Shown: piece by piece, positions 9,390-62,660 of the stretch
How positions within the stretch are numbered: position 1 is the first letter of the stretch
How the letters are laid out: the number at the start of each line of letters is the position of its first letter
NCBI GenBank assembly: GCA_003573975.1
Contig: AP018533.1
Location: 992,001 to 1,056,000 of the forward strand
Length of the DNA: 64,000 nt
Direction: 5' to 3'
From: Clostridiales bacterium CCNA10
Lineage (GTDB): Bacteria > Bacillota > Clostridia > Oscillospirales > Oscillospiraceae
Notes under the pieces: generated by a model
Databases searched by the model: none
Told to the model about the DNA's origin: nothing
Seen by the model: only the letters and a program-made list of their open reading frames with translations
Made by a program: the position numbers and the translations under genes

Positions 9390-9584
9390 CTAAATCTTCT
9401 TTTGTGTATATAAAAACATCCCCTCTCTATAACGGTTGCCCATTCTTTCAATGTACTCCCAACAGGGGAACGGCTCTGTCTGAAAGCACTTTTCACAGCA
9501 GCTCTCGCACACAAAGCCGTACTCCTTGTTGTATGGGCATGGATTGGTAGTTTGGACTTCTTTGCCGCATATGGAGCACTTCAT
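9390..9584 (-). CDS. small Cys-rich zinc-binding protein
   Basis: 64 residues: CSICGKE, NPCPYN, CESCCEKCF. Two CxxC pairs suggest a single zinc site. Overlaps the kinase-HD gene end by four bases. No known function. Confidence 0.65.
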   Translation of the reverse strand: MKCSICGKEVQTTNPCPYNKEYGFVCESCCEKCFQTEPFPCWEYIERMGNRYREGMFLYTQKKI

Positions 9585-10516
9585 TTTGTTTCCTCCGCAG
9601 GTGCCATTTTTGCCTTAATGTCCGCCTCATGAAGCGCCATGACATCTGCGTACATTTTATCGCCAATCAGCCGCTTGAACTTTGCGGCGGCTTTTTCAGC
9701 ATGGGGAACACGCTCCAATTCAAAGGGGCGCATGTGCCACTGAATCAATCCGGCCACATAAAGAACATCAAGAGCAGGCTGGGTGTAAAAGAGGCTGTCA
9801 TATGCGGAGACATGATGGTGCTCATAGTAATGAGCAATGTCGGTATCTTCACCCTTGCTGTTTTTGAATGCCTTAGTAAAAGCCTTGCCGATATCATGCA
9901 ACATTGCCGCCTCATACAGCTCAGGGGAACCATTGTGGATATTCGCATATGTAGCGATGCAATGAGCGCCAACCGTTAGATCATGATGGGGATTATCCTG
10001 ATCCAGCCAGGCCAAGCCATTTTCGCCCCAGAAAAGCTCTTTCACATCCAGCGTCTTAAAACCATCCGGGTAAATCACATGAATCTTGTCCCATCCCTCA
10101 TAATACTGGGGAATCCAAATGGACTTATACATCCGCTCCAGGACTTCATAGGGGACAACGCGATCCCGATGCTTGCTGCGCTCCACGCAATCGGCAAAAG
10201 GAGTTGCCATGAATTCGCACACTTTTTCGCACGGGACTTTGCTCAGCCGCTGAATGGTGTCCATACGGCGCTTATAGTTGATATTCGTTGCGTCGTAAAT
10301 GACATTTCTGCCGTTGCTCAAATCCTCGATCACACGGCGGTGAAGCACATCAAACACCTTACCATTATTGTTCTGATCCTGGACATCCCCAAGGATCTCT
10401 TCGCGGATTGCGTCGCTGGAATGAACCACAGCATTAAACTCTTCTTTCAGCTTTTCCGCATAGCAGGACTTCCCGCTGTAAGGAAGCCCGACCATCATCA
10501 TAAACATCGGTTTCAT
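9581..10516 (-). CDS. P-loop polynucleotide-kinase-like domain fused to HD domain
   Basis: About 311 residues from ATG at 10516 (after GGAGGG). Kinase part: Walker A VGLPYSGKS, then VIYDATNINYKRRMDTI, the pattern of 5'-end nucleic-acid kinases. From about residue 180 an HD phosphohydrolase: GAHCIATY, AAMLHDIGKAF, HYYEHHHVSA. T4-type RNA repair uses a kinase fused to a phosphatase; here the HD domain could do end healing. It heads a cluster with a nucleotidyltransferase and an RNA ligase, which supports RNA repair. Nucleotide metabolism is the alternative. Confidence 0.75.
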   Translation of the reverse strand: MKPMFMMMVGLPYSGKSCYAEKLKEEFNAVVHSSDAIREEILGDVQDQNNNGKVFDVLHRRVIEDLSNGRNVIYDATNINYKRRMDTIQRLSKVPCEKVCEFMATPFADCVERSKHRDRVVPYEVLERMYKSIWIPQYYEGWDKIHVIYPDGFKTLDVKELFWGENGLAWLDQDNPHHDLTVGAHCIATYANIHNGSPELYEAAMLHDIGKAFTKAFKNSKGEDTDIAHYYEHHHVSAYDSLFYTQPALDVLYVAGLIQWHMRPFELERVPHAEKAAAKFKRLIGDKMYADVMALHEADIKAKMAPAEETK

Positions 10517-10533
10517 ATTGTCCCTCCATATAC

Positions 10534-11364
10534 TCAAGCAGCACAGCCGATCTCGCTTTTGAAATTGTACTTAAACAGATCAATCAGCGTCTGGTTTAAT
10601 ACATAGTCAACGGCTCGATTAACGGTTGGCGTATGCTCTTCCATATATTTTGCCTTTGTCTCTTTCATCTTTGATGTGTAGACTTCCGCCATATTAACAG
10701 CGTCATCTTTACTCAGGCACCCAAATTTAATTTGTTTGAGATAATCTGCTTTCTTGGAGAGCAGGCAATCTTCATATGCCTCACCTGCAAGCCACCTTGT
10801 CATGAATTCGTCAAGCCTTAAAATATGGTGCAATTGCTTTGGGTCGTACCCGAACCGTTCAATCTTATCTATTGTTGCAGGATATGGGTGGCAGAGCGCC
10901 TTTTGCTTCTCCATTGCGGTGCCAACCATACAATTCAGAGATGCAAAGTCGTTGTATCTCCCGATCAACTCGCGGGAGTCCAAGACCGGCTGAAAAAGAG
11001 ACGCATACTTCGGATTAAGAATTCTGTATTTCGTGAAAAGGATCTCAACAAAATTGATGTTCTGTTTTCTGAAGCAATCAAACATCAGGCGGATGTCTTT
11101 CACATCAACATGCTCATCATTTTCCATGATGTGCGTGTAACTATACGGCTTTCGGTTCAATACAAAATCCTCGAAAGAGGGGAGGACGATGAGCTTTGAA
11201 TCTACATCGCTCCCCTCGTAGTCGAGCTTATAATTTTGCGACCCTTGCAGGAAAATGCCGACCCATTCCGGGTGCTTTTCCTTTACAGCGTCTAAATGTT
11301 CTGAAAGCCGGCGCATGATTTTTTCATCATGGCTCCGCTCTTCTATCTCAAACACTCCTTTCAT
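10534..11364 (-). CDS. nucleotidyltransferase (YcgL/COG3541-like)
   Basis: 276 residues. FLQGSQNYKLDYEGSDVDSK contains the G-S-x(n)-D-x-D metal site of the polymerase-beta nucleotidyltransferase fold; the pattern matches a phage and bacterial family of unknown substrate. Set between the RNA ligase and the kinase-HD gene with 4-bp-scale overlaps, so probably part of the same RNA-processing operon. Confidence 0.72.
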   Translation of the reverse strand: MKGVFEIEERSHDEKIMRRLSEHLDAVKEKHPEWVGIFLQGSQNYKLDYEGSDVDSKLIVLPSFEDFVLNRKPYSYTHIMENDEHVDVKDIRLMFDCFRKQNINFVEILFTKYRILNPKYASLFQPVLDSRELIGRYNDFASLNCMVGTAMEKQKALCHPYPATIDKIERFGYDPKQLHHILRLDEFMTRWLAGEAYEDCLLSKKADYLKQIKFGCLSKDDAVNMAEVYTSKMKETKAKYMEEHTPTVNRAVDYVLNQTLIDLFKYNFKSEIGCAA

Positions 11365-11735
11365 TAAGTGAATGGATTTTTGTTCCCATATCCAAAGAAG
11401 ATATCAAAAATATCAGACAGATCATCGTCGCCTGTTTTTGGGATATGGTTTGACCTCTGCTCGTTCTTTTTGTCCGGTTTGTAATCGATGTTGTAGGACA
11501 TGTTCTTTGTCCAGCGCTCATTTCTGGTTCTGCTTCGCAGGACAATTGGATCTGAAATACTCCGTTTTACACGCTTGGCAAGCAGAGCACCGGATAACTC
11601 ATTTCCGTTATCATCGAAAAAATCCGACATCTTTGGGACAGAGATATAAAGGTGTGTTACCCCGTCTACGGTGTCTTCTTTCTCAAGACGGACACCATAT
11701 TGCCGCCAGGGTTCGATCATTTCCTTGTTTGTCAT
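11364..11735 (-). CDS. hypothetical protein in RNA-repair cluster
   Basis: 123 residues, polar, with an acidic C-terminal third (TGDDDLSDIFDIFFGYG). No family recognised. Its start overlaps the RNA ligase stop and its stop overlaps the nucleotidyltransferase start, so it is translated with them. Confidence 0.6.
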   Translation of the reverse strand: MTNKEMIEPWRQYGVRLEKEDTVDGVTHLYISVPKMSDFFDDNGNELSGALLAKRVKRSISDPIVLRSRTRNERWTKNMSYNIDYKPDKKNEQRSNHIPKTGDDDLSDIFDIFFGYGNKNPFT

Positions 11736-13048
11736 GCGGCATCTGCTACTTCCTGGGACTCTTCCATATCAGGAGCAGAGGCCACCTCTTTGATAATGCC
11801 CTCCAGCACCTTGAACGCAAAGTTCTTGTGCTTGTAAGCGGTGAACTTTGGGCGGTTCACGATGCGGCAGACAACGCCCTCGCGCACATGGGACTTGCCG
11901 ATGGGATCAGCACCGTCGTAGTAACACTCGGCTACGGTTTTTACCCACTCACCGGGACTATCAGACTCAGGCACAAACCCAGACCACAGGAGCGGGACGC
12001 AGTTCACGCCCATCTGTTCACACCGATAGCGCATGAAGAAAGGCGGGTACTCCACAACATCCCCATCTTCATTGGTCGTGGTCATGCGATACACATAAAA
12101 GGCAGACTTCGGAGCGTCTACACCATTCGGATCACATCCAAAACTGAATACAGTCTGCTTGCCGTACTGCTTCACAAACTCCTTATCTCCGACCTTCTTG
12201 TTGTCGCAGGAGGCCATGATCGGCGTACCGTCGTCGGTAAATCCGACCACCTCATAGTAAACGGTTTCGCCCTTATGAAGCTTGCCCTCGAACACCTTGG
12301 CGTGTTGCTCCCGAAATGCGTTGCTTCCATAAAAGCCGCCGTCAAAGGTGTCGAGAACAACGCGGCGGGTTCCCGTGACATAGCCCCAGTCATAGATCGG
12401 TTTCCCAGGCCGGCGCAGCAGCTTGTCCATAAAGGACTTTTTATAACCAGACAGCACGGGGAGGTAGCCGGTTCGCTGGGATGTACCGTGCATCTTCAGC
12501 GTGATCTCAACAAGATCTCCCTGGTGGAAAGCGCTGAGGTTATAAGGAAGCTGTTCCGTGTCCGCATGTTCCATGAACAGGGGAGAGATGGGGTCTTTGC
12601 GCTTTCTGGTACGATTGCCGGCACCAACAGAATTTCCCTTTTTACGAACTGGGATATACTTTTCACAGATCGTAACGCCGTTGAGCTGCGTAATAGTGTC
12701 GCCCTCTTTGAGCTGAGAGATATCCGTGAAATCCGCAAGGGATGACAGGGGCATGAACAGGCCGTCGCTCTTCTCGCCGCGAAGCTTCAGCGCCTTGATA
12801 TTCCTCTTCTCTGGATCGAGATAGCCACCAGCGGGGCTCCCGTTCTCATCTTTTCTGCGCAGAAGGTCGTTCTTCTGGGCGAACTCAACACCAAGTTGGC
12901 CGTCAACGGGGAAGTAGACACCCAGCTCGTCAGGCTGCGTATCAAGCCCAACGATTACCGTATTACCGAAACACTCGCCGCAGAGCAGGCGATCTGCATT
13001 GGAGTGCTTACGCAGGTTTTTAATCCTGGTTACAAAAGCGTTATACAT
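11732..13048 (-). CDS. RNA ligase (Rnl5/DRB0094-like)
   Basis: 438 residues. The N-terminal about 95 residues (RIKNLRKHSNADRLLCGECF ... GVYFPVDGQLG) match the OB-like domain of Deinococcus DRB0094-type RNA ligases. The nucleotidyl-transfer motif I is LKMHGTSQRTG (Lys-x-His-Gly), with later EVVGFTDDG and REGVVCRI as motifs IIIa/IV-like. These enzymes seal RNA ends through a covalent Lys-AMP. A repeated AAGGAATTAG element precedes it. With the kinase-HD protein it would form a two-enzyme RNA repair set. Confidence 0.85.
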   Translation of the reverse strand: MYNAFVTRIKNLRKHSNADRLLCGECFGNTVIVGLDTQPDELGVYFPVDGQLGVEFAQKNDLLRRKDENGSPAGGYLDPEKRNIKALKLRGEKSDGLFMPLSSLADFTDISQLKEGDTITQLNGVTICEKYIPVRKKGNSVGAGNRTRKRKDPISPLFMEHADTEQLPYNLSAFHQGDLVEITLKMHGTSQRTGYLPVLSGYKKSFMDKLLRRPGKPIYDWGYVTGTRRVVLDTFDGGFYGSNAFREQHAKVFEGKLHKGETVYYEVVGFTDDGTPIMASCDNKKVGDKEFVKQYGKQTVFSFGCDPNGVDAPKSAFYVYRMTTTNEDGDVVEYPPFFMRYRCEQMGVNCVPLLWSGFVPESDSPGEWVKTVAECYYDGADPIGKSHVREGVVCRIVNRPKFTAYKHKNFAFKVLEGIIKEVASAPDMEESQEVADAA

Positions 13049-18414: not shown

Positions 18415-19653
18415 TTATTTGTGTATTTTCAGGTTGGTAGCGATTACATTTTGCCTTGTGTTCCCAATGGAACGATAGAAGCCGTCCGGGTTGAATTGGC
18501 GAATCACTTCATAGATTTCTTTCTTTCCATTTTCGGTAAGAACCAGGTTCGATGTCTCATCTGCGTGGGTAAATGCAAATGTGCGATTGGCTTTCGGATA
18601 CATCTTGGAAACCTTTTTCAGTTCATTACCCACAGCCTCATGAAATCGACGCTCTTCAAATCTGCCGTACCGGAAACTGCCCTGAAACTCATTCCACACA
18701 TTGGTGTCGTCACTCCGCTCTTCTCCAAACAGCTCTTCAGAAGTGCATTCTGTAGGGAAAAGACCAGCGCCGTGCCGCGTAAAGTAAGTTCTTGTAACAA
18801 AACAAACCTCCAAATCAGCAGATTTTGAAAGCCCGCTATTATAGAGAATTTTGTTGACACCAGAGAGCCCAGTGCGGGAAGTGGTGAGATGGGGAGCAAA
18901 CTCTTCATAGAACTCATCCAGCAACAGACCTTGTGCGCCCTCAAACACAATGCCGCCATACTCGTGTACGATATTATCATCGGTCACAGTGCAATACCGC
19001 ATCATCTCATTGACTTGCAGAATCCAGTTGTCGATCACATTTTCACTGAGGATCACATTCAAATCCGCAAGAGAAACAGACGATACGCCGAGATCTTTTA
19101 GCCTTTTCGGGAGGTAGTAGTCGCGCTGCATCTGAAGAGAATGCTTTAGATCTACCGAACCAACACAGCCAGGGGTGATTGTATACCCAACGCCGTGATT
19201 GCGATACCGCAGAACCGTTTCGTTAATGCCAATCCCGCAGCTTCCATGCCTCTGATCACCCCTTGCTCTCTCAACAATTTGGTTTACCAGCATGTCGTAG
19301 GGAGTTGTAATTTTACAGTTGTGGTTGATATATACCTTGGGCTGCAACCACCATTCTCTGCGAAGATTATCAAGCTCCTTGCAGAACAACATGGGGTTCA
19401 AAATAAAATCGCCAGAAAGGTAAGTATCGGTATTCCTCACGAAACTCCCAGCACCAAAGTGACTGAACACATGACGCTTTGGATTTCCATATGCAGGAAC
19501 CACAACGGTATGTCCGGCCTGTGCGCCGCCATTGAACCGGATGTTTAACACACTCCCGTTCTTTGACAACTTGCTACAGAAGCAATCGGTCATCAATCCC
19601 TTGCCCTCGTCGCCAAAGTTTGCGCCGATCACAACCTTTACCTGCTTATTCAT
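18415..19653 (-). CDS. adenylosuccinate synthetase family (PurA-like)
   Basis: 412 residues from ATG at 19653 (after AAAGGGG). GANFGDEGKGLMTD is the phosphate loop with the catalytic Asp, FNGGAQAGHTVV carries the catalytic His, and GIGINETVLRYRN and FEGAQGLLLDEF follow the PurA order. PurA joins IMP and aspartate; phage homologues (PurZ) do the same with dGMP to make diaminopurine DNA. PurZ enzymes have been reported to replace the loop aspartate, which is present here, so a PurA-like or intermediate activity is more likely. No DatZ-type partner is visible. Confidence 0.85.
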   Translation of the reverse strand: MNKQVKVVIGANFGDEGKGLMTDCFCSKLSKNGSVLNIRFNGGAQAGHTVVVPAYGNPKRHVFSHFGAGSFVRNTDTYLSGDFILNPMLFCKELDNLRREWWLQPKVYINHNCKITTPYDMLVNQIVERARGDQRHGSCGIGINETVLRYRNHGVGYTITPGCVGSVDLKHSLQMQRDYYLPKRLKDLGVSSVSLADLNVILSENVIDNWILQVNEMMRYCTVTDDNIVHEYGGIVFEGAQGLLLDEFYEEFAPHLTTSRTGLSGVNKILYNSGLSKSADLEVCFVTRTYFTRHGAGLFPTECTSEELFGEERSDDTNVWNEFQGSFRYGRFEERRFHEAVGNELKKVSKMYPKANRTFAFTHADETSNLVLTENGKKEIYEVIRQFNPDGFYRSIGNTRQNVIATNLKIHK

Positions 19654-19691
19654 ACCAATACCCCTTTCTGGCATTTCATCTTATTTTATTT

Positions 19692-21952: not shown

Positions 21953-23503
21953 TTACAGTCCTCTCAGAGCCTCTTCAACGGGCGCATAGCGCTCGGTGTT
22001 CAAGGTCTCAAGCAAGCACTCGTAAGGATCGGTCTGTCCGCTCATAACCATCTTCACGATGTTCGTGCTGAACCCGCTGACCAGGGCAACGCCAAGGTCG
22101 TTTTCCTTGACAGGAATCGTACCGGTTCTGCTGTTCACATTCCAGAACACAAGGCGTGGGAGCTGGTATCCAGCATCCGCATAGCGCTGAGCGAGAACCG
22201 TAAACAGCCGGGCATCGACGCATCTGTACCCTCTCCGGTGGGTGTTTGTCACGGCGCATCCGTCAAACTCCATGTCGGAAATGATGAGGATGTTGTGAGG
22301 AATGTCGCTCTGAGACATGTTGTTCTTGATAGCGGTGTCCAAAATCAGATCAAACACGGCCTCGATATTGGTGTTCGCCATCTCGTTATGGCTCAGCGCA
22401 ATCCTGATCTTATCCCGCAGAGTCTTGCCGTGGCTGAAATCAACCAGCCGAGGATTCTCGGAGAAGGTGATATAGTTGTCCTTGAATTGGCCGGAAGAGC
22501 GCTCAGCGAAATAGATCGCCAGTGCGTTTGCCACATCCAGAGCGGTCACATTACCGCCTCCGACTCTGCTGGTCATACTGCCACTTCCGTCTGCGACAAC
22601 GATGGTATTACCGCATCCGTTCACGGTATCGGGAAGGGACTTCCAAAGAGCCTCCAGCGTCTGATCCAGAGCCTTAACGGTCGTACCCCATCCACCATTG
22701 GTGTACCGATGTACGATGTCGTGGGGGAAGAGGGTGGAGGCGTTGATCTTAGTCTCGCCCTTTTCCAGCTTGGAGAGGAAGTCGCGGCGGCGCTCTTCGT
22801 CATGACGCAGGAACGCGCTGTTGTAAATCAGATTGGCGCGGGACGGGACGGCCTCATACTTGATCTCGTCCCACTCCTTTGCGGACATCTTCTTCTCCAC
22901 GATATCCAGCTTCGTGCGCAGAGCGGAAAGCGCACGGCGGTAGTCCCACTCCTGAATGCCGATGTAACCGCAAATCAGCTTTGCATAGCGGCGCTTATCA
23001 GCAGAGGAAGAGTGCAGAGAGGGGAGCCACTTTGCCAGCAGGGAAACGCTGTTGCCGCTGTTCATGTTGGCAATGTCTTCCTTGAGCTGGGCGCACACCA
23101 CATCCAGTACATCGCCCTGCAAATCGGTATCAAACAGACACCAGAGATCGTCCCAGCGGCCATACTCAGGCACCAGGCGAATCACCGGCTTGACATACTC
23201 AGGAGAGTTCTTTGCCATATACTCCAGCACAACGCGGAACAGACGGCGCTCTCCCAGGCCACCTCGAATATCGCGGGCGAAGAACAGCCACTTCATCGCC
23301 GTGACCTGATCCTCGAAGAAAGCCCTTGTGAACCTGGCTGCGATGTCTGCCGGGGTTGCTCTGCGGAGAGAAGACACGGCAAAGTTCAGATCGAGCAGCT
23401 CCTTACCGGAGGTACGGTAGCCAACAGCGCCGTTTTCCGTAACAGAGACATTGTACTCGTCGTTCAGCGTGTTCTTCATTGCGGACATGAAATTGTTGCT
23501 CAT
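21953..23503 (-). CDS. DUF2828 / TROVE-like vWA protein (Ro60-related)
   Basis: 516 residues. Start NDEYNVSVTENGAVGYRTSG and FFARDIRGGLGERRLFR plus PEYGRWDDLW are DUF2828 blocks: a HEAT-repeat-like N-terminal ring, then a vWA domain with the metal site VADGSGSMTSR. TROVE/Ro60 proteins of similar layout bind misfolded or tRNA-like RNAs and, in bacteria, work with RNA-processing enzymes. The gene follows straight after the unusual tRNA cluster in the same direction and shares the genome with an RNA-repair set. RNA binding is inference. Confidence 0.8.
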   Translation of the reverse strand: MSNNFMSAMKNTLNDEYNVSVTENGAVGYRTSGKELLDLNFAVSSLRRATPADIAARFTRAFFEDQVTAMKWLFFARDIRGGLGERRLFRVVLEYMAKNSPEYVKPVIRLVPEYGRWDDLWCLFDTDLQGDVLDVVCAQLKEDIANMNSGNSVSLLAKWLPSLHSSSADKRRYAKLICGYIGIQEWDYRRALSALRTKLDIVEKKMSAKEWDEIKYEAVPSRANLIYNSAFLRHDEERRRDFLSKLEKGETKINASTLFPHDIVHRYTNGGWGTTVKALDQTLEALWKSLPDTVNGCGNTIVVADGSGSMTSRVGGGNVTALDVANALAIYFAERSSGQFKDNYITFSENPRLVDFSHGKTLRDKIRIALSHNEMANTNIEAVFDLILDTAIKNNMSQSDIPHNILIISDMEFDGCAVTNTHRRGYRCVDARLFTVLAQRYADAGYQLPRLVFWNVNSRTGTIPVKENDLGVALVSGFSTNIVKMVMSGQTDPYECLLETLNTERYAPVEEALRGL

Positions 23504-23519
23504 TTTAGATTCCTCCTTA

Positions 23520-23538
23520 GATTGATTAACTAAATCCT
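23520..23538 (-). promoter_or_regulatory. repeated intergenic element upstream of DUF2828 gene
   Basis: Minus strand AGGATTTAGTTAATCAATC, 16 bp before the ATG, between the gene and the tRNA cluster. Confidence 0.55.
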
Positions 23539-23596
23539 AACAGAAAACTTCAAGGCACTTATGTCCATTGTGTTGCTGCTTGTGCCTTAAAGGAGG

Positions 23597-23678
23597 CAAG
23601 AGGCGGAAAGGATTTGAACCTTATCGTTTCAGATTATGAGTCTAAAAACTTTAACCAGTGTTTTGCTGTGCGCCTCTT
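23597..23678 (-). tRNA. tRNA-Met(CAT)-like with an insertion near the D arm
   Basis: Acceptor stem AAGAGGC/GCCTCTT, anticodon arm TTAGA-CTCATAA-TCTGA (anticodon CAT), T loop TTCAAAT. It is 82 nt, about nine more than usual; the surplus GCACAGCA lies between acceptor and D stem. That insert contains ACAGCAA, found in six other RNAs of this cluster. No CCA is encoded. Confidence 0.6.
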
Positions 23679-23771
23679 ATCATGGGAGCTTTTTTCGGAA
23701 ACTTCCCAGAACCGAACCATTGCTGCCAACTTTTTAGGGACTGTTTGAATGGTGAAGTCAACTCTTACCCC

Positions 23772-23889
23772 TGGTGCAGCAGGCAGGAATCGAACCTGCG
23801 ATGGCGGCTGGCCTTTTTGAATATTGCTGTTCGTGTACCAAAAGCACACACTTTTTATAGCCGCTGTCTTACCACTTGACCACTACTGC
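23772..23889 (-). tRNA. tRNA with a 44-nt insertion in the anticodon loop (isotype unclear)
   Basis: Acceptor GCAGTAG/CTGCTGC with encoded CCA, D arm, perfect anticodon stem GCGGC/GCCGC, T arm GCAGG-TTCGATT-CCTGC. The anticodon loop is 51 nt instead of 7. The insert starts ATAAAAAGTGTGTGC and holds GAACAGCAATATTC. Because the insert boundaries are unknown the anticodon cannot be read. Without processing it could not decode. Confidence 0.7.
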
Positions 23890-23973
23890 GTAAATGTCTG
23901 TCTTTCCAGACTGTCACCATTTCTGCCCATTTATGAGGTTGGTTTAGAATGGTTTAAGCAGCTCTTCCTCCGG

Positions 23974-24096
23974 TGCCAGGAGCGGGACTTGAACCCGCGA
24001 CCACGTGCTTAACAGGCAAATCAGAAAGTTGTTGTGTGCGGATCATACAATTCGCATGGGGTGATATTACGTGCTCTACCGCTGAGCTATCCTGGC
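23974..24096 (-). tRNA. tRNA-Asn(GTT) interrupted by a 51-nt insertion
   Basis: Removing 51 nt (about 24013-24065) from the 5' strand of the anticodon stem gives a textbook 72-nt tRNA: acceptor GCCAGGA/TCCTGGC, D arm GCTC/GAGC, stem CGTGC/GCACG around loop CTGTTAA, T arm GCGGG/CCCGC. The insert lies between positions about 29 and 30, not at the usual intron site 37/38, and carries a small TGCG/CGCA hairpin followed by ACAACAA. Too short for a group I or II intron. Confidence 0.8.
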
Positions 24097-24099
24097 ATA

Positions 24100-24175
24100 T
24101 GGCCTATGCGGTCAGAATCGAACTGACAATCTACCAATCGCACCCGCATTGTACTTCTGCCGGCGTTACGCATAG
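24100..24175 (-). tRNA. tRNA-like gene, atypical anticodon loop
   Basis: 76 nt including encoded CCA. Acceptor CTATGCG/CGCATAG is perfect and T arm GTCAG-TTCGATT-CTGAC is canonical. The D arm is short and the anticodon arm CAAT...ATTG has loop GCGGGTGCG without a U at the usual position before the anticodon, so the isotype is not assigned. No insertion. Confidence 0.5.
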
Positions 24176-24182
24176 ATATTAG

Positions 24183-24258
24183 TGTTAGGCTCACCAGAAT
24201 TGCACTGGAGCACTTCTTCGGTTCTGGTACAACCATTGAAGCGTGACCCTTACCTAAC
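24183..24258 (-). ncRNA. tRNA-sized structured RNA of unknown type
   Basis: Ends pair (GTTAGGT/GCCTAAC) like an acceptor stem, TCAC/GTGA extends the helix, and ACCAGAA/TTCTGGT forms an inner hairpin. A T-loop-like TGCAATT is present but the arms do not fit a tRNA well. Possibly a decayed tRNA. Confidence 0.35.
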
Positions 24259-24311
24259 TGTGATCATATTTTAGATGTTCCTACAACCAACCAAATAAAG
24301 AAAGGAGGCGG

Positions 24312-24428
24312 TGCGGGAGGGAGGACTTGAACCTCCGACAAACAGATTCCTATTTTGATGTTGCTGTACGCGCTTTTGCAAAGCACAAACTATTTTGTCC
24401 GTTGCTCTACCATCTGAGCTACTCCCGC
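24312..24428 (-). tRNA. tRNA with a 44-nt insertion in the anticodon loop (isotype unclear)
   Basis: Acceptor GCGGGAG/CTCCCGC, D arm GCTC/GAGC, anticodon stem ACGGA/TCTGT and T arm GGAGG-TTCAAGT-CCTCC are all intact. The anticodon loop is 51 nt, the same as in the gene at 23772. The insert begins AAAATAGTTTGTGC, makes hairpin GTGCTTT/AAAGCGC, then GTACAGCAACATC and ends AAAATAGG; the ends repeat AAAATAG directly. A GGTTAA/TATAAT promoter lies just upstream. Confidence 0.7.
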
Positions 24429-24435
24429 ATGTTCT

Positions 24436-24471
24436 ATTATATCTAACAATCCAGACTCGATAAAATTAACC
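24436..24471 (-). promoter_or_regulatory. GGTTAA-N24-TATAAT promoter for tRNA genes
   Basis: Minus strand GGTTAA, 24 bp, TATAAT; the TATAAT ends 8 bp before the tRNA at 24428. Same geometry as the promoters of protein genes between 30 and 46.6 kb. Confidence 0.7.
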
Positions 24472-24500
24472 GCACTGGACATTATTTTTTGTGACGGCTT

Positions 24501-24608
24501 TGGGAGCTTCGGAGTCGAACCGAACGCAAAGTTTTTGCAGAACTTCAAAGAAAATTGCTGTAAGTGCTCGCCGCCCTATACACATTGATGCTGTCACCGG
24601 ACGCTCCC
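24501..24608 (-). tRNA. tRNA-Cys(GCA)-like with an insertion 5' of the anticodon arm
   Basis: Anticodon arm AAGTT-CTGCAAA-AACTT (GCA), T arm TTCGG-TTCGACT-CCGAA and acceptor GGGAGC/GCTCCC are clear. Between acceptor and anticodon arm there are 56 nt instead of about 19; this holds GAGCACTTACAGCAATTTTC. No normal D arm can be drawn unless part is removed. No encoded CCA. Confidence 0.55.
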
Positions 24609-24611
24609 ATT

Positions 24612-24697
24612 TGGTGCTGGTGGCGGGGATCGAACCCGCACGGGGTATCCCCACGGGATTTTAAGTCCCGTCTGTCTGCCTGTTCCATCACACCAGC
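24612..24697 (-). tRNA. tRNA-Leu(TAA)
   Basis: Normal class II tRNA with encoded CCA: acceptor GCTGGTG/CACCAGC, anticodon arm CGGGA-CTTAAAA-TCCCG, long variable arm GGGGATACCCC, T arm GCGGG-TTCGATC-CCCGC. No insertion. Confidence 0.93.
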
Positions 24698-24701
24698 AGA
24701 T

Positions 24702-24792
24702 TGGCGGGGCAGACAGGACTCGAACCTGCACATCCTTTCGGATTACTGGTGGTTTAGCAAACCACTTCCTTACCAGTTAGGATTACTGCCCC
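24702..24792 (-). tRNA. tRNA-Ser(GCT)
   Basis: Class II tRNA with encoded CCA: acceptor GGGGCAG/CTGCCCC, anticodon arm GTGGT-TTGCTAA-ACCAC, variable arm AGTAATCCGAAAGGATGT, T loop TTCGAGT. No insertion. Confidence 0.93.
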
Positions 24793-24801
24793 AAAACAAA
24801 C

Positions 24802-24861
24802 AAGGCGCTTTTTATGTTGAATTTCAAGTTCAATTTTGTGTTAGATTGCTGTATGCGCCTT
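24802..24861 (-). ncRNA. 60-nt armless tRNA-like RNA with ACAGCAA (type A)
   Basis: A 7-bp terminal stem AAGGCGC/GCGCCTT encloses AT-ACAGCAA, an A/T-rich linker, a hairpin TTGAA-CTTGAAA-TTCAA shaped like an anticodon arm (TGA if it were a tRNA) and CATAAAAA. No D or T arm. Closely similar in design to the next RNA. Confidence 0.45.
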
Positions 24862-24881
24862 AAATTATCTTCACCCACAAC

Positions 24882-24937
24882 ACGACACATGATATGTTTT
24901 CAAATTTTCATACATACAAAATTGCTGTTAGTGTCGT
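24882..24937 (-). ncRNA. 56-nt armless tRNA-like RNA with ACAGCAA (type A)
   Basis: Terminal stem ACGACAC/GTGTCGT, then TA-ACAGCAA, an AT-rich hairpin and CATATCAT before the closing strand. Same plan as the RNA at 24802: 7-bp stem, two bases, ACAGCAA, AT-rich interior. Lies 16 bp from the stop of the coiled-coil gene upstream. Confidence 0.4.
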
Positions 24938-24953
24938 AACTACCGGCATCCGA

Positions 24954-25250
24954 TCAGGATGCTGTTTCGCTCTCTTCCTCCGCTTCATCAACGGCCAGGA
25001 GCTTGGAGAAATTCTTGATCACAACGCAGTTGCGCTTCTGGTTATGAACCAGCGTGTCACGCTGCTCCGTAAGCCGGGAGATGTACTCGTCAATCTCGGA
25101 CTTAGTATCTTCAATCTCCTGGTTTACCAATTCCAGGCCAGAGATTGCCCGCGTTACGATGTCAACGGCACTCTCCGCATCCGCCTGGAGCTGATGAAGC
25201 TTTCTCTCTTTCTCAGAGATGATATCAACATAGATTTTCTTCATCAGCAT
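24954..25250 (-). CDS. small coiled-coil protein
   Basis: About 98 residues from ATG at 25250. Long helix with heptads (KERKLHQLQADAESAVDIV, ELVNQEIEDTKSEIDEYI) and acidic C-terminus (DEAEEESETAS). Start shares its ATG region with the stop of the SPFH gene, so the two are co-translated and may form one complex. Confidence 0.65.
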   Translation of the reverse strand: MLMKKIYVDIISEKERKLHQLQADAESAVDIVTRAISGLELVNQEIEDTKSEIDEYISRLTEQRDTLVHNQKRNCVVIKNFSKLLAVDEAEEESETAS

Positions 25251-56761: not shown

Positions 56762-59539
56762 ATAAGCCTCGATAAGCAGATCCATATTTATAGCTTTGAT
56801 ACAAGCGCTTTTTATACAGATGAAGAGAAACAGCTTGAGACTTCGATTAACAACCGCTGCCTGTCGAAGAATAGGCTGAAAGCAGAAAAAGATATCTTGT
56901 CGGAGTATTACTATAATGGCCTATCTCTCGAAAAAGCACAGGCTAAGTACCGTCAGCTATATAGAGTAAAAAAAGACGAGCCTATTGATATCGGTGACAA
57001 AGATAGGATTCGTCAAATCAATAAGGAAATCAAAAATCACAACAGCAGTATTAAACTTTTGAAAGGTGAATTACTCAAGTTACTGCAAACGCACAGAGCA
57101 ACCAGAGAGCTACGCGGCGAGTATGTCGTTGATAAAAATGTGATTTCGGTATTTGAGTCCATGTTGACACGGACGCTGGGAATGAAGACGGGCAATCTGT
57201 ATGATGACTTTATGGTGATTCGTACTTATTATTTCGATGTTATAGAAGATCTGATTTTGAATGGGTATATCTATAACGGAGAGAGGTATGTTTGCTTTAC
57301 TGCATCCGCCGGCCAGATCAGGACAAAAAAGACCGTGTTCATTAAGGAGCGAGTGTGGAAAGAAAATCAGAAAACGCTCATGTGTGGATTAACAGTCGAT
57401 TCCATTAACGAGCGCGGCGGAATCAATATCAATAAATACCTCGCCTATCTTGCACTCTGCAATAGCGCAACAGATCCGTGGGAAAAGTTTGACATTACCA
57501 AGTCAATTGTCGTTGATGACATGGAGACGATGGTTCGTGGTACGGTTGATTTCATTGACCATAGGACATATACCACGGAGAGAAAGGTAATGGATATCCC
57601 AATTACACATACTGATGGCTGCGGAATGGTTCTTCCGTCGTGCAATGCCAAAAACACAATGGTTCGTTTGCCTTGGGTGAAGGGGTTGTTGGCGGTATTT
57701 CCTTTTGACCGATTTATCCGAGAGGCTGACAAGCAAGATCCAAGTGTCCAGCATGGAGTTGTGAAGGACATATATGGTGTGGAGCATGATGTGCTGAAGG
57801 AAGATATCCAAGTTATTTTCACCAAGAGTCAGTTCAAGATGTACAAATACTATTCCAGCTGGGAAGAGTACATTGCTATGTACCAAAAGTATGGTTGTAC
57901 CGCTGGAAAATGCAATGAAGAGGAATCTTTTTTGCCGGACGCTAAACTGAATTATCAGATGTTGCAGACGCTTACTGATATTTCAGAGGATGAAATTGAA
58001 AGGCTTGCGAATCGATCCGTAGAGAAAATTCAAAATGTTGCGTCTGATCGGGAGACTATGCTTGAAGTATTTGGAGCATCATCGCAGTACAAGAATAAAA
58101 ATGCTTTCCAGGAATGCCTTTCTATCTATCCTGAGCTACTTTCAGACCCGTATACCAAAGAGATGTTACGGCAAATAAAAAAGAACCTTGTAAAAGAGGG
58201 AAGGTCTGCCAAGCTTGACCTGTCAGCCAAATACATGTTCTTGATTCCAGATTTATATGCCTTTTGTCAATGGCTCTTTTTGGGAGACAAAGACCCATGC
58301 GGTTTGTTAAAGGATGGTGAGGTGTCAAGCTTTTTGTATCGTGCGTATGGGAAGCTCGATTGTTTGCGCTCCCCTCATTTATACCGCGAACATGCTGTGA
58401 GAAATAATGTGGTGAACGCCAAAACAAAAAGGTGGTTTACTCCTAACGCAATTTATACGAGCTGCCACGATCTTATTTCAAAGATTTTGCAGTTTGATTG
58501 TGACGGAGACAAGAGCCTTGTGTGCGCAGATCCGCTTATCATTGAAATCGCAGAGAGGAACATGAAAGATATTGTTCCACTGTACTATGAGATGGCAAAG
58601 GCCGGCGCGGTCATTGTAACGCCGGAAGAGATTTTCCATGGATTAAGAGCGGCCTGGACTGGTGGAAATATCGGAGTAATCAGCAATGATATTACGAAGA
58701 TCTGGAATAGCGATGATGTCGATATTGACGCGATTAAGATACTTTGTATGGAGAATAATTTCTGCATTGATTACGCAAAGACGCTATATAAACCAACGAG
58801 GCCAGACCGTATCAATGCAAAGCTTTCACAGATAACAGGCATGAAAGCGCCACATTTCTTTATATATGCAAAAGGGAAGACGGCTCACCAGGTACAAAAG
58901 AAAAACGCGAGTGTTGTAAATAGACTCGATAAGATTGTCCCAAATAAGAGAATGTCTTTTGCTGCTAAAAACATCGGTGTGTTCCATTATCAGAATATGT
59001 TGAGCAAACCAAAAAAGAATGTGGTTATCAAACAAGAAGTGATAGACCTCTATAACGAAGTGGAGAAACAATATCGTTATTCAATCAACTTTTACGATGA
59101 TAGCGTGAACTACTCATATATTAGGGACTCTATTTTGGAAAGATTTAACGAACTCAAAACTGATCGTGTAGAATGTTGTGACATACTTGTGAAATATCTA
59201 TTCCATATGAGACAGAGCAAAAGGAAGAACATATTTTGGATGTGCTTTGGGGATATAGTTCTATCCAACTTGCAGAAAAATTTGCCGGCTGGTTCTATTC
59301 AGTGTAGGATGTGCGGAGAGCGATTTGTCCCTGAGGTTGCCAGACAGAAGCTTTGTAGTAAGTGTTCCACTTATCAACCCATTTGTAAAAAGACTATCCA
59401 GTGTATTGATTGCGGGCAATTTTTTGAAGTGGATGGTATTGTGAAGAATAAGAAGCGATGTGATGCGTGTCAAGATATATGGGATAAGAAAAAAAGAGCA
59501 GAAAGGAACGCAAGATATTACCAATCCCATAAGAATTAA
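56762..59539 (+). CDS. YonO-like single-chain RNA polymerase (double-psi barrel, DxDGD)
   Basis: About 925 residues. Centre contains FDCDGDKSLVC, the metal-binding DxDGD of the two-barrel RNA polymerases (SPbeta YonO, crAss-like phage polymerases, eukaryotic RdRP). The C-terminus adds two zinc ribbons (CRMCGERFV ... CSKC; CIDCGQFF ... CDAC). YonO transcribes late SPbeta genes without a sigma factor, so this enzyme may read a phage promoter class here. The open frame begins after a TAG at 56746; with GGGGGAG as ribosome site the best-placed start is ATA at 56762, while the first TTG (56897) would lose 45 conserved-looking residues. Confidence 0.78.
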   Translation: MSLDKQIHIYSFDTSAFYTDEEKQLETSINNRCLSKNRLKAEKDILSEYYYNGLSLEKAQAKYRQLYRVKKDEPIDIGDKDRIRQINKEIKNHNSSIKLLKGELLKLLQTHRATRELRGEYVVDKNVISVFESMLTRTLGMKTGNLYDDFMVIRTYYFDVIEDLILNGYIYNGERYVCFTASAGQIRTKKTVFIKERVWKENQKTLMCGLTVDSINERGGININKYLAYLALCNSATDPWEKFDITKSIVVDDMETMVRGTVDFIDHRTYTTERKVMDIPITHTDGCGMVLPSCNAKNTMVRLPWVKGLLAVFPFDRFIREADKQDPSVQHGVVKDIYGVEHDVLKEDIQVIFTKSQFKMYKYYSSWEEYIAMYQKYGCTAGKCNEEESFLPDAKLNYQMLQTLTDISEDEIERLANRSVEKIQNVASDRETMLEVFGASSQYKNKNAFQECLSIYPELLSDPYTKEMLRQIKKNLVKEGRSAKLDLSAKYMFLIPDLYAFCQWLFLGDKDPCGLLKDGEVSSFLYRAYGKLDCLRSPHLYREHAVRNNVVNAKTKRWFTPNAIYTSCHDLISKILQFDCDGDKSLVCADPLIIEIAERNMKDIVPLYYEMAKAGAVIVTPEEIFHGLRAAWTGGNIGVISNDITKIWNSDDVDIDAIKILCMENNFCIDYAKTLYKPTRPDRINAKLSQITGMKAPHFFIYAKGKTAHQVQKKNASVVNRLDKIVPNKRMSFAAKNIGVFHYQNMLSKPKKNVVIKQEVIDLYNEVEKQYRYSINFYDDSVNYSYIRDSILERFNELKTDRVECCDILVKYLFHMRQSKRKNIFWMCFGDIVLSNLQKNLPAGSIQCRMCGERFVPEVARQKLCSKCSTYQPICKKTIQCIDCGQFFEVDGIVKNKKRCDACQDIWDKKKRAERNARYYQSHKN

Positions 59540-62039: not shown

Positions 62040-62660
62040 CTTGATAAATCAATATCTGAATCATGCTTATTATTAACTCAGTGAACAAAGCGTGTCAGCG
62101 CTCTGAGACGCACAGTAATTTCCGTTTGGTTGAATAGGGATACCTGTTCGATTGCGCGGCTATGGTATAGTGATATACTGTAGGGAGGCGGAAACCACCA
62201 ACAAAAATGTGTGTTGCCAAGAGTTGTCGCTGCAAAATGCACGGAACTTTCGGGCGTAACAATAGACGCTCCCAGTGGGAGAATAAGCCTAAGGGGTTAT
62301 GGCGTGGCAACCATAATGACAGAGGTAGGCCAACAATACGCTCCGTCTTGAAGCAGAAGAAATTCTGCTATAACGAAAGTCGCCGGTTAAAGTAGCCGTA
62401 TGACGGGTTTGAAGATGATCTTTTCTATATCAAATATGGATTTTGTAAAAGAAAATTTCTGAAAGAACGGTGAAATTTGCGGGTAAGCATTCCCGCACAG
62501 GTTTATGTACGCAATATGGCTTAGCCTGTTGCGATACTGGGGTAAGAAGTTAGGGGTCGCTCCCCGAAGCTCAGACTTATCTTCCTGGTGGCAGAATATT
62601 GTAAGAAGACAATGGAGGTAGGGTGAAGACCCAGTGATAGGTATGATTGAGCTATTGATT
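62040..62660 (+). ncRNA. putative large structured non-coding RNA (ROOL/GOLLD-like candidate)
   Basis: 620 bp with no credible long gene, directly after a tRNA promoter and tRNA-Thr and before a phage gene. Several GC hairpins (TGCGGG-TAAGCAT-TCCCGCA; GGGG-TCGC-TCCCC). Large ornate RNAs next to tRNA genes, such as ROOL (about 580 nt) and GOLLD, are known from Firmicutes phages and match in size and place, but I cannot test the consensus by eye. A 62-residue basic frame at 62207-62395 with CVAKSCRCK is the only coding option. A 16-bp stretch GACGCACAGTAATTTC here (62107-62122) recurs before tRNA-Ile. Confidence 0.45.

Follow-up and report, generated by a model that had tools for sequence, protein, structure and literature searches.

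A conserved helix and ACAGCAA element beside Ro60-like genes of phages: candidate phage Y RNAs that may present anticodon arms

The stretch of Clostridiales bacterium CCNA10 DNA considered here (contig AP018533.1, positions 992,001 to 1,056,000; 64 kilobases (kb), hereafter the window, whose own numbering is used for coordinates given without a locus label) carries, in a prophage region, a minus-strand cluster of at least eight small RNAs (23549–24939) upstream of a minus-strand gene for a Ro60-like protein of 516 residues (21953–23503). A first-pass annotation made from the sequence alone had noticed seven RNAs in this cluster containing ACAGCAA or ACAACAA, and seven minus-strand ACARCAA sites are indeed found within the 1.34 kb from 23597 to 24937, at 23663, 23824, 24029, 24361, 24555, 24846 and 24922, the one at 24029, in a tRNA-Asn-like gene, reading ACAACAA. 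An eighth member, which has GCAGCAA instead, is added by a covariance-model match at 23549–23590. Over both strands of the whole 64 kb, ACARCAA occurs 31 times against 18.6 expected, a count of 31 or more being reached in none of 100 shuffles.

Three members, all on the minus strand, are recognizable as interrupted tRNA genes, with Rfam tRNA scores of 50–52 bits, and ARAGORN calls none of the three. The tRNA-Asn(GUU)-like RNA (23972–24096) has its anticodon stem split by a 51-nucleotide (nt) insert at 24019–24069; nucleotides 27–28 (CG) pair with CG past the insert, the arm TGC-CTGTTAA-GCA is intact after it, and the split point lies after nucleotide 28, or 29, one T being ambiguous. In the Gly-like tRNA (23772–23889), which encodes ACCA, and in the tRNA-like RNA at 24310–24428, a hairpin-NN-ACAGCAA insert lies in an anticodon loop of 51 nt by hand count, and no intact anticodon arm was found in either. 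Both the 51-nt insert and the two enlarged loops described in the first-pass annotation thus hold.

The five remaining members, likewise on the minus strand, are matched by the covariance model R1, described below. The GCAGCAA form at 23549–23590 is a short stand-alone element in which no anticodon arm was found (27.8 bits, E 0.0037), while the RNA at 23595–23680 has an outer helix, a CAU anticodon arm (TTTTAGA-CTCATAA-TCTGAAA) and a T-arm-like part (26.7 bits, E 0.0067), and scores just 21.1 bits with the Rfam tRNA model. In the tRNA-like RNA at 24501–24609, ACAGCAA is followed by a GCA anticodon arm (GAAGTT-CTGCAAA-AACTTT) and a T arm (match at 24518–24572, 21.6 bits, E 0.098). The last two, 24799–24863 and 24879–24939, are hairpins that stand alone without tRNA likeness: the former carries a UGA anticodon stem-loop, TTGAA-CTTGAAA-TTCAA (47.9 bits, E 9.6e-8), and the latter an outer helix ACGACAC/GTGTCGT with ACAGCAA, no canonical anticodon loop being found (38.2 bits, E 1.6e-5). 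The cluster also holds two degenerate tRNA-like RNAs without ACAGCAA (24104–24175 and 24185–24257), and a similar one was seen by eye in the relative L009. Rfam Plastid-ycf2 matches were disregarded, being antisense to tRNAs.

The neighboring 516-residue protein, the predicted RNA-binding partner, belongs to DUF2828/DUF7788, with profile matches to PF25043 (5.7e-43), PF11443 (7.4e-36) and phrog_850, “RNA-binding protein” (8.2e-139). A Ro60 fold, with a helical ring and a vWA domain, is predicted for it, and a fold search finds the Ro60 of Thermus phage phiLo (PDB 9l5y); a PDB search by sequence returned nothing at E 0.001. Because Pfam TROVE gives no match, DUF7788, DUF2828 and VWA_2 being the only families hit at E up to 0.01, we call the protein Ro60-like rather than a TROVE member. 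Relatives of its gene occur in 677 of 50,697 phage records.

The element shared by the RNAs consists of two strands. One forms a side of the helix and continues into two free bases and ACAGCAA; its partner often comes after an A-rich stretch and before UG or AG. ACAGCAA with a helix lies beside the Ro-like gene in phages of Listeria, Enterococcus, Bacillus, Mycobacterium, Escherichia, Staphylococcus, Campylobacter, Vibrio, Cronobacter, Klebsiella, Sinorhizobium and Aeromonas. Fifty loci together hold 160 ACAGCAA no further than 2 kb from the gene; an outer helix fits 97 of these and a hairpin 27, leaving 36 without either. A helix test at 5 base pairs (bp) was positive at 352 of 800 random positions and, being too loose, was replaced by a stricter one. 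Among 30 loci selected by the protein (the window, L009–L027 and L268–L277), RCAGCAA occurs within 2.5 kb on the strand of the gene in 27, and with a helix in 23; the helix is present at 72 of the 101 RCAGCAA sites of these loci, against 283 of 1800 random positions. Across 21 loci, ACAGCAA occurs 70 times near the gene, whereas permuted words occur 7.6 times on average, their highest counts (31 and 28) coming from one-base shifts of ACAGCAA, and 57 of the 70 have a helix compared with 386 of 1400 random positions; L226 was taken as protein-selected in this count, though drawn from the scrambled-motif scan.

The association was also approached from the RNA side, by a scan of viral contigs that required ACAGCAA to precede a T arm and took no account of the protein, with a scrambled word as control. 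Each scan gave at least 120 loci, of which 120 each were used to look for the gene in the fetched stretch and the 80 listed each for whole records. Among the matches listed, the gene lies in the fetched stretch at 29 of 120 ACAGCAA loci and at one of 120 scrambled loci, on the same strand in all 29 cases and within 1 kb in 23. Records encoding phrog_850 number, again among the matches listed, 38 of 80 for the motif (27/50 and 11/30) and 10 of 80 for the scrambled word (4/50 and 6/30; p 2e-6). The link between element and Ro-like gene across many phage groups is strong.

The helix was further described by R1, a model of 30 aligned elements, one from each of 30 loci, from which the window and its close relatives were left out. 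Its 7-bp helix is 98.6% paired, with both sides varying at every pair; as only elements scoring 6 or more for the helix had been selected, this covariation is not independent evidence, in contrast to the counts of 57/70 and 72/101 and the out-of-sample model matches. In the window R1 matches five places, all within the cluster (best E 9.6e-8, weakest 0.098), and in the whole 3.56-Mb genome it gives at least 12 matches up to E 10, with 150 of 425 candidates scored. Among the genome matches listed, five lie in the cluster, five in a second tRNA cluster, one by the sole other DUF7788 gene found, and one is a stray. In 80 scrambled-motif loci there were seven matches, of which five fall in L191, L217 and L226, whose records encode the protein. 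Relatives of the insert thus exist in other phages, contrary to the lack of relatives and the decay that would have refuted the first-pass annotation.

The element occurs in three arrangements. In the stand-alone form (A), the helix strand and ACAGCAA are followed by an inner part and the closing strand, while in the tRNA-embedded form (B; 46 rows) a hairpin with ACAGCAA sits within the anticodon arm of a tRNA; about five of these rows (L101, L114, L141, L142, L143) are ordinary tRNAs whose variable arm contains the word, and L130 and L144 are near-identical. The third (C; 59 rows, including two double counts, L020 and L047) is a circularly permuted tRNA, in which outer helix and ACAGCAA come first, then the anticodon region and the T arm, next the 3' strand of the acceptor, joined by a short linker to its 5' strand, and finally the D arm and the closing strand. 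The linkers go down to 3 nt, the shortest length searched, and a stricter search for permuted tRNAs found the motif in 30 of 42 and lacking in 12. By the test applied, the anticodon arm and lower stem are intact across the insert in 15 of the 46 B rows, and the anticodon arm is intact in 12 of the 59 C rows; wherever the anticodon arm is intact the break in both comes after tRNA nucleotide 28, with U33 and a purine at 37 present. Arrangements B and C are circular permutations of one another.

Anticodon-like loops also recur among the stand-alone RNAs. The set comprised 81 RNAs (90 elements minus nine with a motif other than RCAGCAA), 46 of them from the protein-selected loci, and the test required a stem of at least 4 bp, a 7-nt loop, U33 and a purine at 37. 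Such a stem-loop is found in 30 of the 81 (17 of the 46), against a mean of 5.3 and a maximum of 12 in 400 rounds of shuffling. No other loop size from 4 to 11 reaches 30, wherever the two bases are placed; the next best, 9-nt loops, gives 28, probably since opening one pair of an anticodon arm leaves a loop of that size. The stem is exactly 5 bp in 18 of the 30 arms; 19 have C at position 32, 24 have A at 37 and 21 have A at 38. Their distance from ACAGCAA is also preferred: 25 arms sit 5–16 nt after it, with 15 different anticodons among them, and 17 start at 9–11 nt. In the window the arms display UGA, GCA, CAU and GUU, and each of these anticodons is also borne by an intact tRNA of the second cluster. 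The arms thus look selected as anticodon arms, yet not necessarily for decoding.

Taken together, the inserts are probably copies of this conserved helix-NN-ACAGCAA element, the likely docking site of the adjacent Ro60-like protein, which would make the RNAs phage Y RNAs; and since many of them hold up an intact anticodon arm, those arms are predicted to be decoys for nucleases that cut tRNA anticodons. The three arrangements would be most simply explained by RNAs docking on the Ro-like protein with an anticodon arm on display. The RNAs would be transcribed, the protein would bind the helix and ACAGCAA, and the tRNA-embedded copies would stay unspliced, each a tagged mimic in which the protein holds the tag while the anticodon arm, with a tRNA body or none, is shown to host nucleases as bait; decoding would be left to the intact tRNAs of the second cluster. 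Host defenses that cut tRNA anticodons, and phages that counter them with tRNAs, are described in PMC10264068 and PMC11555353; those tRNAs are likewise phage RNAs set against anticodon nucleases, but they replace or resist, whereas the ACAGCAA RNAs look like tagged mimics. A passage of the RNA repair operon study (PMC7790460) contains its authors' suggestion that the tRNA-like part of the bacterial Y RNA YrlA might be a competitive inhibitor of an anticodon nuclease.

Several observations weigh against this account. In Salmonella, the same study saw the tRNA-like part of YrlA left uncut by the anticodon nuclease observed there (PMC7790460). By the arm test, 51 of the 81 stand-alone RNAs have no canonical anticodon arm, and five of the 30 arms lie at odd distances (0 or 31–37 nt), about the chance number; one is a T loop, and the five are probably chance. 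No arm was found in four of the eight window members (23549–23590, 24879–24939, 24310–24428 and the Gly-like 23772–23889). Minimum-energy folding of three single RNAs recovered the outer helix in both RNAs having one and an anticodon arm in none, which is either a point against the drawn structure or a limit of single-RNA folding. The 36 near-gene ACAGCAA of 160 that lack a helix by the helix test also count here, as do seven of the 30 protein-selected loci without motif and helix at threshold (L015, L019, L025 and L270–L273), although a 6-bp helix is present in L019 and a single weak model match (E 0.015) in L015. In the control, 10 of 80 scrambled-motif records, among the matches listed, encode the protein as well, and two R1 matches fall in scrambled-motif records without it (L183, L185). 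Finally, the 15 tRNAs that could be split cleanly would suit an intron as well.

The nearest known system is that of YrlA-type Y RNAs (Rfam RF02553) with Rsr/Ro60, which also has a Ro-fold gene adjacent, an outer helix and, as in the permuted RNAs here, a T arm before the D arm. As expected of Y RNAs, a Ro60-family gene is adjacent. A tRNA-like domain is present in the tRNA-embedded and permuted forms; in the stand-alone ones at most an anticodon arm was found. Among six loci searched, the best YrlA match is 39.8 bits (E 2.7e-5, L021 6535–6643) and another reaches 37.7 bits, both on permuted RNAs, while the window gives 22.8 bits (E 0.057); because all fall under the gathering cut-off of 69 bits, the RNAs were not filed as YrlA. 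Unlike YrlA, they have a conserved NN-ACAGCAA core that is absent from the Rfam YrlA consensus, often keep an anticodon arm, occur stand-alone and tRNA-embedded, and often come in several copies per locus; the window protein also differs in being DUF2828/DUF7788 without a Pfam TROVE match. Archaea and red algae have tRNA genes that are permuted or carry introns, and these resemble the phage RNAs in placing the 3' half before the 5' half or in having the anticodon arm interrupted. The phage RNAs, however, lie in a phage and bacterial setting, have termini that form a conserved helix with ACAGCAA, and include stand-alone copies. That several phages have YrlA is stated, with citation of a 2018 review, in a passage of PMC7765460. 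Phage proteins of the same fold include phiLo Ro60 (9l5y), and those of the same fold or family the mycobacteriophage “Ro-like RNA binding protein”, MPC00265 (PMC12363180) and the ROT/TROVE proteins of jumbo phages (PMC7824862); the 9l5y title, the record annotations and the passages of the two papers mention no RNA partner of this kind, and PMC7824862 places a tRNA-like partner in cellular organisms.

A rather less likely but serious alternative keeps the phage Y RNAs on the Ro-like protein and gives their tRNA-like parts other ends, such as exoribonuclease tethering, gating of the Ro ring, or RNA quality control or tRNA repair. The Ro fold, the YrlA-like permuted layout and the RNA-repair-like genes nearby all suit it; passages of the literature describe tethering of Deinococcus radiodurans PNPase by Rsr and a Y RNA (PMC7790460) and interpret a phage TROVE protein as an RNA repair component (PMC7824862). 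By itself, however, it leaves the variety of canonical anticodon loops unexplained. We think it improbable that the element is a new type of tRNA intron at 28|29, which the Ro-like protein would excise with the help of an RNA kinase and a ligase, the permuted genes giving circles that are cut to tRNAs. The identical split after nucleotide 28 in 15/46 tRNA-embedded and 12/59 permuted rows, with U33 and purine 37, speaks for it, as do the RNA ligase and kinase-like genes of the window; but in stand-alone copies there are no tRNA halves that could be joined, two window copies lie in an anticodon loop where no intact arm was found, intact tRNAs with the same anticodons are nearby, and acceptor linkers can measure just 3 nt. 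Decay of tRNA genes, or insertion of small mobile hairpins into tRNAs, to which the short A-rich direct repeats flanking the insert in two window genes and the members without a good anticodon arm might point, is very improbable given a helix that covaries without sequence conservation, same-strand linkage to one protein family and relatives in many phage groups; a near-identical mobile element was rejected, as the sequences differ while the helix covaries. Group I and II introns, already doubted in the first-pass annotation, were rejected as well, the inserts being only about 45–51 nt, with no Rfam intron match in the window, nor in 23400–25000 at E up to 10.

Of the two proposals of that annotation, the undescribed tRNA-interrupting element survives as something real, widespread and shared with other phages, while its reading as an intron is disfavored by stand-alone and permuted copies. 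A set of deliberately non-decoding tRNA-like RNAs fits better, though that idea lacked the Ro60-like neighbor gene and the anticodon arms. Extending the decoy account, we would tentatively suggest a widespread phage counter-defense, in which a Ro60-like ring protein would form an anticodon display library with a set of RNAs, each presenting a different anticodon arm (stand-alone, tRNA-grafted or permuted) as bait for host anticodon nucleases. The analysis proposes an RNA partner for the phage Ro-like gene, supplies a model with which to search for it and predicts what the partner shows to the cell. If true, the account would join three questions, namely the role of phage Ro proteins, the tRNA mimicry of Y RNAs and the many tRNAs of large phages, and it may explain some long tRNA genes annotated as pseudo or undetermined. 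The literature searched, as titles, abstract openings and passages, describes neither such RNAs nor an RNA partner of the Ro-like gene; phage Y RNAs of this kind might be described in the principal papers on Y RNAs (Chen 2014; Sim and Wolin 2018; Sim 2020).

Further observations concern the Ro-like gene in other places. In Vibrio phage KVP40 its start codon lies inside the closing strand of an element (L019 4963–5009), and in phiM7 and Aeromonas phage 4_4572 an element is directly upstream of the gene (L269 3948–3987, and L274); this position at or just before the gene start suggests that the protein could shut off its own translation by binding its mRNA. Annotated tRNAs of 110–122 nt, some undetermined, lie near Ro-like genes in phages Aeh1 (L272 8151–8272), S13 (L268 5896–6138) and B23 (L025 6851–6960), and are possible further tRNA-embedded copies with an altered motif. 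A second Ro-like gene of the CCNA10 genome (L280, at 3.10 Mb) has its own RNA set, in one RNA of which the outer helix of the element encloses an apparent whole tRNA-like domain. The second tRNA cluster (L281), about 40 kb from the Ro-like gene, contains 22 tRNAs and a transfer-messenger RNA by ARAGORN, together with its five model matches.

Within the window, three RNA-repair-like genes on the minus strand, taken as context only, lie 9–12 kb from the Ro-like gene, encoding a polynucleotide kinase-like protein (9581–10537), a nucleotidyltransferase-like protein (10534–11364) and an RNA ligase (11732–13048; phrog_968 RNA ligase, 1.2e-65, with Pfam RNA_ligase below its cut-off); further profile matches in this group are to phrog_505 (2.1e-17) and phrog_388 (4.3e-13). 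Phages GAP32, PHA46, AG20 and 4_4572 likewise have RNA ligase genes annotated close to the Ro-like gene. Elsewhere, an 880-residue protein (56897–59539) matches the RNA-dependent RNA polymerase family PF05183 (E 1.3e-14), and a ROOL RNA lies at 62053–62651. A relative of adenylosuccinate synthetase (18415–19674; Pfam 1.4e-36; phrog_1211, “2-aminooxy adenylosuccinate synthetase”) hints at modified DNA.
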